From positions 1 to 25,768 of the IMG/VR virus record IMGVR_UViG_3300042463_000558: 25,768 nt of DNA; one strand, given 5' to 3'. The translations under genes and the position numbers were made by a program. This DNA comes from a virus. The notes beneath the pieces are model-generated. The model was not told the DNA's origin and ran no database searches. It was given only the letters and a program-made list of their open reading frames with translations. Shown here piece after piece: positions 7,135-16,000 of this stretch; position 1 is the first letter of the stretch; each line of letters begins with the position of its first letter.

Positions 7135-7142
7135 TTGTTTTG

Positions 7143-7169
7143 GGGAGCTTTCGGGCTCCCTTTTTTTTT
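7143..7169 (+). terminator. Intrinsic terminator, first of a tandem pair
   Basis: GGGAGC (7143-7148) pairs with GCTCCC (7155-7160) around TTTCGG, followed by nine T. It ends the head-lysis transcript. Confidence 0.92.
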
Positions 7170-7220
7170 ATATTTGTACTACTTTAGTAATTCCAAAACA
7201 AAGTAAATCAGATTTGATTG

Positions 7221-7248
7221 CCCCATTCTATACGGATGGGGTTTTTTT
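7221..7248 (+). terminator. Intrinsic terminator, second of a tandem pair
   Basis: CCCCAT (7221-7226) pairs with ATGGGG (7236-7241) around a 9-nt loop, followed by seven T. Together with the terminator about 60 nt upstream it insulates the early region from late transcription. Confidence 0.9.
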
Positions 7249-7354
7249 GTTTATTATATTATACCTAATCGGGTATATTCCGACTAAACTCACAATATAT
7301 TGCACCTTTTAGGGTACAATTAAGCGTATTTCACCAGCATTAAGTGTTTTGAAT

Positions 7355-7413
7355 GTCACAAAATCAGGGTAAAACCTGACGAAAATTGTAACAAAATCAG
7401 GGTAAAACCTTAC
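7355..7413. repeat. Direct repeat pair, 26 nt, spaced 33 nt start to start
   Basis: Copies at 7355-7380 and 7388-7413 differ at two positions and share the core ACAAAATCAGGGTAAAACCT. The first copy contains TCAGG...CCTGA, a short inverted repeat. The 33-nt start-to-start distance is close to three helical turns, which would place bound proteins on the same face. They lie about 50 nt upstream of the early promoter and look like operators. Confidence 0.7.
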
Positions 7414-7460
7414 ACTCTAAAAATAAATGTGAAAAAAAATAAAAAATTTGTTTACAAAAG

Positions 7461-7491
7461 TTTGCAGATATGCAAAAGAGGTGTATCTTTG
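7461..7491 (+). promoter_or_regulatory. Early promoter, Bacteroidota-type, with overlapping palindrome
   Basis: TTTG (7461-7464), a 19-nt spacer and TATCTTTG (7484-7491) match the Bacteroidota primary sigma consensus TTTG-N19-21-TAnnTTTG exactly. The palindrome TTTGCA-GATA-TGCAAA (7461-7476) covers the -33 element, so a bound regulator would block polymerase. Transcription would start near 7498, about 29 nt before the first small early gene. Confidence 0.85.
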
Positions 7492-7526
7492 TAAGGTCAA
7501 TAAGGCACAACAATAAAACAAACGAT

Positions 7527-7709
7527 ATGAAAACTTTAGTAACTGAAATCGAAAACTTACACACTGGCAAAGTAGAAACAAGCAAATCTTATGTCTTAGG
7601 TGTAAACACTAAAGAGCAAGAACAATCGCACTTGCAAAAATTAACAAATCAAATGTCTAAGATGCACTTAACAACCGACTACAAACTTTCACGAGTATAT
7701 TTTATCTAA
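7527..7709 (+). CDS. Small early protein, unknown function
   Basis: A 60-aa protein starting MKTLVTEIENLHTGKVETSK. I chose the ATG at 7527 because the upstream in-frame ATG at 7470 lies inside the promoter, before the expected transcription start; the chosen start has an A-rich leader. The protein is hydrophilic with basic and acidic residues mixed, has no membrane segment and no motif I recognise. As the first gene of the early transcript it is a candidate host-takeover or regulatory protein, an inference from position only. Confidence 0.6.
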   Translation: MKTLVTEIENLHTGKVETSKSYVLGVNTKEQEQSHLQKLTNQMSKMHLTTDYKLSRVYFI

Positions 7710-7727
7710 TCATCAAAACAATTTATT

Positions 7728-8525: not shown

Positions 8526-8668
8526 GATTCAAACTTACCTACCACATCGGGCTCGCAGTAGTGCAAGAGTGGATATTCACCAGCAAGTCATTGGCATACT
8601 GGAAAAAGATGGACCTGATTGAGACCGGTCGATATAATGATGGTAAATTCAAAGTGACACCGGTATGA
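8522..8668 (+). CDS. Small basic protein, 48 aa, unknown function
   Basis: A 48-aa frame starting MRFKLTYHIGLAVVQEWIFT and continuing SKSLAYWKKMDLIETGRYND before a short basic end. Its stop overlaps the next gene's start as ATGA (8665-8668), and it fills an otherwise empty stretch. The SLAYWKKMDLIETGRYNDGKF segment looks like the recognition helix and wing of a small winged-helix domain, which would fit the HTH genes that follow, but the protein is too short to be sure. Confidence 0.55.
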   Translation: MRFKLTYHIGLAVVQEWIFTSKSLAYWKKMDLIETGRYNDGKFKVTPV

Positions 8669-8853
8669 ATCAGCATCGAATCATGAGAGTCATCAAGCTG
8701 ATGGAATTTCTCAAGCAGAAGCCAAGACCAGTGCAAGCGATGGTCAGATATCTTGGAATCAGTGAGCGTTCAGTTTACCGATACCTCAAGATGTATGAGC
8801 AGCTCGGCTATCAATTAACCAAAGACAACCATAAAAAATACTTTTTAAAATGA
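8665..8853 (+). CDS. Small winged-helix/HTH DNA-binding regulator
   Basis: A 62-aa protein made of a single HTH: IMRVIKLMEFLKQKPRPVQ (helix 1), AMVRYLGISERSVYRYLKMYEQ (helix-turn-helix, recognition helix about residues 34-44) and LGYQLTKDNHKKYFL (wing). This arrangement is that of the HTH_11/WYL-type N-terminal domain, without the effector domain. It may bind the palindrome or repeats in the control region upstream, an inference from proximity. It overlaps both neighbours by ATGA. Confidence 0.75.
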   Translation: MNQHRIMRVIKLMEFLKQKPRPVQAMVRYLGISERSVYRYLKMYEQLGYQLTKDNHKKYFLK

Positions 8854-9260
8854 CTAAAACAATGCAAGAGATTCTCACTGAAGTGAATCAAGAAATCGTA
8901 AAAAATGACCTTAACTTCACACCTGGTGCAGACAACCGTGCACGTCACAAAGTGTATCAGCGTTACTACTTATTTTTATTCCTTCGCACTCATCGACTAA
9001 CACTGGAGGAGATAGCCAAGATATTTGGAATGGACCATTCAACAGTCGTGTATGGATTGAAGCAAGCCAATATCATGAAAAGAGACCGTTTATTCCTTCG
9101 CATGACCGATGATTTGCGTCAGAAATTCGAGCAATACACAGCTATGGACTATTTGGTTGAGAGAAATCTGATGCTTGATGTGCTCCAGTGTGGCTCATTT
9201 TGGGAGATGAGAAAGCTCCAGGAAGATATTAAAAAAGGGCTGTATGGTGTGACGATATGA
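8850..9260 (+). CDS. DnaA domain IV-like DNA-binding protein, candidate replication initiator
   Basis: A 136-aa protein whose central region (about residues 28-96) resembles the C-terminal DNA-binding domain of bacterial DnaA: a basic helix ARHKVYQRYYLFLFLRTH, then LTLEEIAKIFGMDHSTVVYG with the core MDHSTVVYGLKQA (residues 61-73). This matches the DnaA signature GRDHSTVLHACRK, whose residues contact the DnaA box. The AAA+ ATPase domain of DnaA is absent. A 40-residue C-terminal extension follows (YLVERNLMLDVLQCGSFWEM). Its gene ends inside a copy of GTGACGAT, and four copies of the complement ATCGTCAC follow within 180 nt. I infer a phage initiator or origin regulator; a plain transcription factor is the alternative. 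Confidence 0.7.
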   Translation: MTKTMQEILTEVNQEIVKNDLNFTPGADNRARHKVYQRYYLFLFLRTHRLTLEEIAKIFGMDHSTVVYGLKQANIMKRDRLFLRMTDDLRQKFEQYTAMDYLVERNLMLDVLQCGSFWEMRKLQEDIKKGLYGVTI

Positions 9261-9434
9261 CGGATTCTCTATTGTACCGATTACTGGAGTAATGGCAAAC
9301 AAAATAAGAGCAAAAAATTTTTGAGAGCGTCATCGTCACGCAAAAACGTTAAGTTGCACAATATCAGAATTTTAACCCTTAAGATTTGCAAATTTATCGT
9401 CACGCATCGTCACAAAACACCCATTTATCGTCAC
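9249..9434. repeat. Iteron-like repeat cluster, ATCGTCAC
   Basis: Four direct copies of ATCGTCAC at 9332-9339, 9396-9403, 9406-9413 and 9427-9434, and one inverted copy GTGACGAT at 9249-9256 inside the end of the preceding gene. The last three start 10 and 21 nt apart, one and two helical turns. Two copies read TTATCGTCACG, recalling the DnaA box TTATNCACA. They are probably protein-binding sites. Confidence 0.75.
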
Positions 9435-14646: not shown

Positions 14647-14679
14647 AAATTGCCACATAACTTAAAACGAAATGTAAAA

Positions 14680-14771
14680 CAAATGCCGTAGACGTGCGGA
14701 ACGTAGCCTGCCGAGTAAGTCGGTTCTCATCGTAGGGAGATAGGTTAGCCTTCCGAGAAAAAGGCTTTTTT
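14680..14771 (+). ncRNA. Candidate structured RNA or leader ending in a terminator
   Basis: The 144 nt between 14647 and 14790 hold no gene but are GC-richer than other gaps from about 14684. A hairpin CCGA-GTAAG-TCGG (14711-14723) lies between segments repeating CGTAG (near 14687, 14702 and 14731), and the stretch ends in a strong terminator. This could be a small phage RNA or an attenuator. No tRNA cloverleaf or known riboswitch was recognised. Confidence 0.35.
14747..14771 (+). terminator. Intrinsic terminator after replication genes
   Basis: AGCCTT (14747-14752) pairs exactly with AAGGCT (14761-14766) around an 8-nt loop; the stem ends in a run of T through 14771. Confidence 0.88.
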
Positions 14772-14790
14772 AAACTAAACAACAAGAAAA

Positions 14791-15292: not shown

Positions 15293-15474
15293 ATTATATC
15301 ACATCAGTCAAGGCAATGCCTGAGGAAGAGCGATACAGCAAGAGAACGCTGAACGTGCTCAAGCGCATCAAGGTCGCAGAGACCGGGCAGCCTGACCGTG
15401 AATGCTTCTGCTCTCAGCTGAGGCGCAAAATCTGGTACAAGGAATTCATCAACTGGTATGAAGGCAACTCTTGA
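15274..15474 (+). CDS. Small basic phage protein, unknown function
   Basis: A 66-aa protein starting MDREQIDYITSVKAMPEEER and ending CFCSQLRRKIWYKEFINWYE plus GNS. The Cys-x-Cys pair followed by basic and aromatic residues is a pattern I associate with short Bacteroidota phage proteins lying before sigma-like genes; no function is known to me. ATG 15274 was chosen because longer in-frame options lie inside the membrane protein gene. Its end overlaps the next gene by 17 nt. Confidence 0.6.
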   Translation: MDREQIDYITSVKAMPEEERYSKRTLNVLKRIKVAETGQPDRECFCSQLRRKIWYKEFINWYEGNS

Positions 15475-16000
15475 CCGATACATATCGTCCCACTATGAGG
15501 AGCTGTATCGCTATACCAGGTATTTCTGCTCCAAGTACAATCCGAAGCTAACTATCGACACGGTCATCTCCAACGCATATCTACACTGCATCGAAATCAA
15601 TGACAATACAGAGGATGTCGGCAAGGTCAAGAGCTATATCCTCAACTCAATCAAGCGTCAAGTCATTTGGAAGAACGTCAACAGCTTCAAGGATGAGCGA
15701 ATCATGGCATCAGAACTCGCAGTTCCGGACACTTTCGATGATGGGGAGGACCTCAACTACAAAATAGCAATCGAACAGCAATACCAGGGATGGAAGTCAT
15801 CGGTGGACATCTACCGAGATGGGCTGACAGACAACGTCAAGATTGCAGTGGCCAAGGCATACTTCGACAAGGGCCTCACAACGGCACGATCTATGGCACA
15901 ATATTTCAACATACCAGTGACATCAGCTCACTACCTAATCGCAGACATAAAAAATACACTTAAAACCATACACTATGAAAATAAAAGACCTAATCAATGA
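15458..16000 (+). CDS. Sigma-70-family-like protein, candidate late transcription factor
   Basis: A 180-aa protein laid out like a small (ECF-type) sigma factor. Residues 8-72 look like region 2: HYEELYRYTRYFCSKYNPK, TIDTVISNAYLHCIEI (compare AEDLVQETFLRAW) and VKSYILNSIKRQVIWKNVN (compare the WLYRIARNLAID block). A linker follows, and residues 139-170 look like region 4: GLTTARSMAQYFNIPVTSAH with recognition helix, then IADIKNTLKTIH. It lies just before the packaging and tail genes, where a late gene switch would be expected. Similarity is at the pattern level only; a plain HTH protein remains possible. Confidence 0.6.
   Translation: MKATLDRYISSHYEELYRYTRYFCSKYNPKLTIDTVISNAYLHCIEINDNTEDVGKVKSYILNSIKRQVIWKNVNSFKDERIMASELAVPDTFDDGEDLNYKIAIEQQYQGWKSSVDIYRDGLTDNVKIAVAKAYFDKGLTTARSMAQYFNIPVTSAHYLIADIKNTLKTIHYENKRPNQ

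Follow-up and report, generated by a model that had tools for sequence, protein, structure and literature searches.

Lambdoid-type phages have immunity regions with variable operators. In Bacteroidota, the Bacteroides promoter consensus combines TAnnTTTG at -7 with TTTG near -33 (PMC7366714), and in Flavobacterium psychrophilum the TAnnTTTG box of sigma-A is placed at -12 to -5 (PMC9723704). Searches of an open-access literature collection turned up nothing on how Flavobacterium phages regulate their early genes. We analyzed an IMG/VR virus contig of 25,768 b, referred to over its whole length as the window, which carries head, portal, terminase, tail and amidase genes as well as a replication block (PHROGs scans). 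The region studied here has no DNA match among GenBank phage records, and the primase-like protein is at most 39% identical to those of Flavobacterium, Nonlabens, Polaribacter and Bacteroides phages. As the named relatives are this distant, we can only infer the host, a flavobacterium-like member of the Bacteroidota. About 100 related loci were gathered through the primase and DnaA-like proteins, and further loci through promoter patterns and through the metallophosphoesterase (MPE) gene, the end of which lies just upstream of the promoter region. Extraction of the sequence between the MPE gene and the first early gene did not depend on the presence of the promoter motif. Counts of arms and alignment columns refer to 47 distinct 151-nt contexts with promoter haplotypes A, B and C (10, 30 and 7, respectively).

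An earlier note on this DNA had described an exact Bacteroidota promoter at 7461-7491, and this description holds: TTTG-N19-TATCTTTG matches both Bacteroidota sigma-A boxes exactly, with a 19-nt spacer between the -33 element TTTG (7461-7464, + strand) and the -7 element TATCTTTG (TAnnTTTG; 7484-7491, + strand), both read directly from the sequence. It is the single match to TTTG-N17-21-TAnnTTTG on either strand of the window, where dinucleotide shuffles give a chance expectation of 0.12 for N19 and 0.57 for N17-21. When the intergenic region is shuffled, an N19 match arises in only 0.1% of cases. The transcription start would be expected at about 7496-7498, with the placement of the sigma-A box at -12 to -5 (PMC9723704) pointing to about 7496. 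An A-rich, UP-element-like stretch precedes the promoter (7425-7460, + strand), and its A-run and TGTT are kept in haplotypes A, B and C. The promoter sits 3' of two intrinsic terminators on the + strand, one closing the upstream gene block (7142-7168) and the other at 7220-7248, and 5' of the + strand early and replication genes. From 7500 up to 14747, no terminator-like site was found on the + strand. Altogether, 7461-7491 is very probably a real host-type promoter. We propose that it would be the main early promoter, read by the host primary sigma factor, and that the small early ORFs and the replication genes, encoded on the + strand, would be expressed from it.

Two further features lie farther along the window. 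A 144-nt non-coding gap (14647-14790) contains a GC-rich stretch that ends in a terminator-like hairpin (14747-14766); Rfam gave no match, including in this gap, which is a probable early transcript end or small RNA. Before the terminase genes, a 180-aa protein (15458-16000) has no useful family match. The low-confidence model of its structure (pLDDT 63) is similar to ECF sigma factors (Foldseek E 0.03), and the protein could be a late-gene sigma factor.

Six promoter haplotypes, A to F, were found at the same genomic position in the relatives. The window carries haplotype A (TTTG CAGATATGCAAAAGAGGTG TATCTTTG). Haplotype B reads TGAA, GTAA or GAAA at the -33 box, followed by CATATnTGCAAATGTTGCG TATATTCG, and haplotype C reads TTTG CAGATATGAAAC... 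TAnnTTCG, with variants. Haplotypes D (TTTG TTAATAACGATTAAGTGTA TATATTTG) and E (TTTG GTAGGTTAGAAATAGTACA TATATTTG) share their -7 element, and haplotype F (TTTG CATAAATGAAACCTTTTG TATCTTTG) has an 18-nt spacer. The -33 TTTG is found in A, D, E and F and in 6/7 C contexts. TAnnTT[T/C]G stands at the same place in nearly all relatives, with TAATTTCA in some C promoters.

These haplotypes appear to move between phages together with the sequence that follows them. The nearest relative of the window, L084, is ~95-99% identical on both sides of the region, yet it has a B promoter and lacks both the window's 5' leader (7492-7526, + strand) and its first early-operon ORF (7527-7709, + strand; 60 aa, no family match), the altered stretch running from ~7462 to 7713. 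The same ORF is missing in L082. On the tree of the upstream gene, haplotype A requires at least 5 changes, 5 of them forced by well-supported branches, and on the primase tree 6 changes, of which 4 are forced by well-supported branches. The swap in L084 and the repeated changes on both trees lead us to conclude, with high confidence, that promoter, leader and first ORF are exchanged as a cassette, probably by recombination.

We also screened ORFs up to 9 kb downstream for linkage to haplotype A. Only the 60-aa first ORF is clearly linked (5/8 A against 0/18 B loci, p 0.0009; it also occurs in 2/7 C loci), and the next matches reach p 0.03-0.04 without multiple-testing correction. A regulator gene covarying with haplotype A was rejected on this basis, the one clear linkage being to this ORF without family match. 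The ORF occupies a variable cargo slot: across relatives, the position corresponding to window 7492-7727 is filled by unrelated small ORFs (MKTLVTEIENLH..., MKTINYKGFEV..., MKTFKISFQDING..., MKTYFFIYEDAEG..., MTTQQQNT...), and one and the same slot-ORF family can follow promoters of different haplotypes (A, C, D and E). In L161 and L162, the 7527 gene is found in another context.

The earlier note had further reported a perfect palindrome over the -33 element, TTTGCA-GATA-TGCAAA (7461-7476, + strand). Its 6-nt arms are perfect; the GATA center is asymmetric, with G opposite A, and 7/8 pairs match overall. Inverted repeats of this size occur at chance level: the window contains 5 with 6-nt arms and a 4-nt gap against 7.9 expected, the intergenic region contains 1 (P ~0.24), and a degenerate form of the palindrome (up to 3 mismatches) is found once against 3.3 expected. 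The promoter therefore exceeds the chance expectation, and the dyad by itself does not. Conservation in relatives, the lack of which the note itself had named as refuting, was not found. The full dyad is confined to haplotype A (10/10) and missing in B, C, D, E and F, including the near-twin L084. The left arm TTTGCA is present in A (10/10) and C (6/7) and in none of the 30 B contexts; the right arm TGCAAA is present in A (10/10) and B (30/30) and in none of the 7 C contexts. As either arm persists where the other is missing, the conserved unit is something other than the 16-bp dyad in its reported form, and a role as a dedicated operator is improbable.

The chance-level frequency of the dyad, its disappearance between near-identical phages and the independent retention of its arms all agree with a simple explanation, which we regard as a real possibility: the region may be a plain strong early promoter without any operator, in which the haplotype-A dyad is accidental, the -33 TTTG standing next to an AT-rich spacer where TGCAAA occurs by chance. 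Any conservation in the spacer would then reflect descent or contact with the host RNA polymerase.

What this explanation accounts for less well is a shorter element inside the spacer. The core CAnATnTGnAA (7465-7475, + strand; CAGATATG in the window) includes CAnATnTG (7465-7472), which is itself symmetric about an axis at 7468/7469 shared with the reported palindrome. CAnATnTG is kept in 46/47 A, B and C contexts; by column, the C, A, A, T, T, A and A of the core are invariant in 47/47 contexts and the G is kept in 46/47, while the three n positions, the remaining spacer and, in B, the -33 box vary. In each near-complete genome scanned, the core is all but confined to the promoter. Haplotype F keeps its outer bases (CA....TG). 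By contrast, the D and E promoters occupy this position as perfect TTTG-N19-TATATTTG sequences but lack the core, which argues that the host polymerase does not need it. This pattern speaks for binding by a factor peculiar to the A, B, C and possibly F phages, and we tentatively regard the core as a candidate regulator site. Of the claim that a site lies over the -33 box and spacer, what stands is this shorter symmetric core, which is conserved and co-occurs with a small HTH gene, and not the 16-bp dyad. Against the regulator-site reading, the core is short and is represented by few independent promoter lineages (A, B, C and F), the outer half-sites of B and C are asymmetric, so that the symmetry of the core may be accidental, and some of the conservation may be due to common descent.

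The best candidate for binding the core is HTH14029 (14029-14229, + strand; 66 aa), one of two small HTH genes that had been pointed out nearby. Its AF2 model (pLDDT 93.7) has helices at residues 11-22, 29-36, 40-47 and 54-65 and predicts an XRE/lambda-repressor-like fold. The top Foldseek matches are mostly XRE-like regulators and the MuB N-domain; those to the MuB N-domain, HipB and C.Esp1396I have probabilities of 0.87-0.98 and TM up to 0.68, with weak E values of 0.2-0.3. By sequence, HTH_3 gave no match and the best Pfam profile was DUF7726 (E 0.028), so the HTH assignment of this gene stands on its predicted fold and not on a sequence family. Every A, B, C or F genome that was scanned over its full length has the gene (53% identical in F). 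The D and E records, among them three of 29-30 kb, yielded no such gene. The core is thus present with HTH14029 and lost without it, a co-occurrence that is confounded by exchange of the whole replication module in D and E: these phages share structural genes with the others (TerL 78-79%, portal 71%, MPE 82-84%), their primase, SSB and HTH14029 were not detected, and their recombination genes are different ones. L268-L271 (G018, G019) combine the same structural genes with different early promoters and a replaced replication module, in which primase, SSB and HTH14029 were not detected and the ERF and exonuclease are other ones, at ~31% identity. The HTH14029 gene also lies 6.5 kb away from the promoter. 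That HTH14029 acts as the regulator at the core is possible but less likely than not.

The promoter match, the cassette exchange, the conserved core and the HTH fold prediction come directly from the sequence, whereas transcription, binding, repression and the identity of the regulator are inferred. Our preferred account, offered tentatively, is that of a host sigma-A early promoter in a probably virulent phage, with the spacer core as the candidate site of a feedback regulator. CAnATnTG and the AA to its right are kept while the outer arms, -33 box and flanks change. The core would be bound by a small phage regulator from the same operon, with HTH14029 as the best candidate, and the bound regulator would cover the -33 box and spacer and shut down the early promoter, in a Cro-like negative feedback. 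The more specific version, a minimal loop in which the 66-aa XRE-like protein recognizes the 2-fold CAnATnTG and cassettes are traded around a fixed core, is rather unlikely as stated.

We further considered whether the region mainly serves as a replication origin or activator site, with a DnaA-C-like protein on upstream repeats and the promoter core as part of the complex. A third small HTH protein, overlooked by the earlier note, is encoded at 8850-9260 (+ strand; 136 aa) and resembles the DnaA C-terminus (Bac_DnaA_C E 7.3e-6, below the curated cut-off); A and B loci share it in conserved form, and it diverges in many C genomes as well as in the D/E genomes. Two 27-nt direct repeats with the core AGGGTAAAACCT lie at 7354-7380 and 7387-7413 (+ strand). 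This pair, 33 nt apart, comprises the only copies in each relative that has them and is always upstream of the early promoter. The repeats, together with small inverted repeats upstream, are the proposed DnaA-C-like sites, and both their placement solely upstream of this promoter and the presence of a DnaA-C-like gene across A, B and C loci speak for an origin. On the other hand, the repeats are single in G004, G010 and G011, missing in G009 (all A/B relatives) and absent in C records, though the DnaA-C-like gene remains. A second array, four iteron-like copies of (C/T)ATCGTCAC at 9331-9434, lies in the 211-nt gap directly preceding the primase-helicase gene, and GC skew around the region gives no clear origin signal. 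Both observations weigh against the origin reading, which we consider improbable. The paired AGGGTAAAACCT repeats were also examined as a palindromic operator and rejected, as the outer pair does not covary (15/41 copies complementary).

The earlier note had read the region as a genetic switch. In the lysogenic sense, a repressor on the 16-bp palindrome would maintain the prophage state, in line with the overlap of the haplotype-A dyad with the -33 box and with the XRE-like HTH protein. However, the dyad is not conserved, and tyrosine and serine recombinases (PF00589, PF00239) as well as HTH_3 (PF01381) were found in 0/18 records (those of the window and 17 relatives; 12 records measure 28.5-30.4 kb), with working controls (matching in 14/14 and 10/14 for the recombinase searches). 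There is no plausible minus-strand gene for a divergent repressor beside the promoter. A search of 84,980 bacterial and archaeal species genomes returned no relative of the MPE gene and no close prophage; one distant primase (45%) was found in a Flavobacteriaceae MAG contig. The phage appears to be a virulent freshwater phage of a Bacteroidota host. A lysogeny switch is thus unlikely, to the point that we give it very little credence, and negative feedback on early transcription would be a more natural role for an operator here.

The second small HTH gene pointed out earlier, HTH8665 (8665-8853, + strand; 62 aa), is an HTH_11-like protein with sequence-family support (Pfam HTH_11 E 1.8e-5). 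As the cognate regulator of the haplotype-A dyad, it has in its favor this match and its position in the same early operon, 1.2 kb downstream, but it can be set aside as highly improbable: it occurs in 3/7 A loci versus 7/26 others (Fisher p 0.65; 4/8 A, 4/18 B and 2/7 C in a wider set), is missing from about half of the A phages and from the near-twin L084, and several phages that have B or C promoters encode it at 92-100% identity.

If the feedback reading of the conserved core is true, the strength of the -33 box and the first cargo gene can vary without loss of feedback. Near-identical neighborhoods that differ by their promoter cassette form a natural experiment, and together with a single conserved candidate regulator they make a simple binding or reporter test possible. 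Haplotypes A-F can also serve as a library of natural promoters, ready for use in Flavobacterium-type hosts.

Compared with known systems, the trading of promoter haplotypes as units between close relatives recalls the immunity regions of lambdoid-type phages, with the difference that here no repressor gene travels with the haplotype and no integration genes were found. The promoter has the same -33 TTTG and -7 TAnnTTTG as Bacteroidota sigma-A/sigma-ABfr promoters (PMC7366714, PMC9723704), from which it differs in being phage-borne and in having a conserved spacer core that is absent from the D/E promoters of related phages. Finally, while HTH14029 has no detectable sequence relation (no HTH_3) to the XRE regulators of the Cro type or the C proteins of restriction-modification systems, and its gene is far from the candidate site, it resembles them as a small all-helical protein with a predicted fold near C.Esp1396I, HipB and the MuB N-domain, and the candidate site overlaps the promoter.
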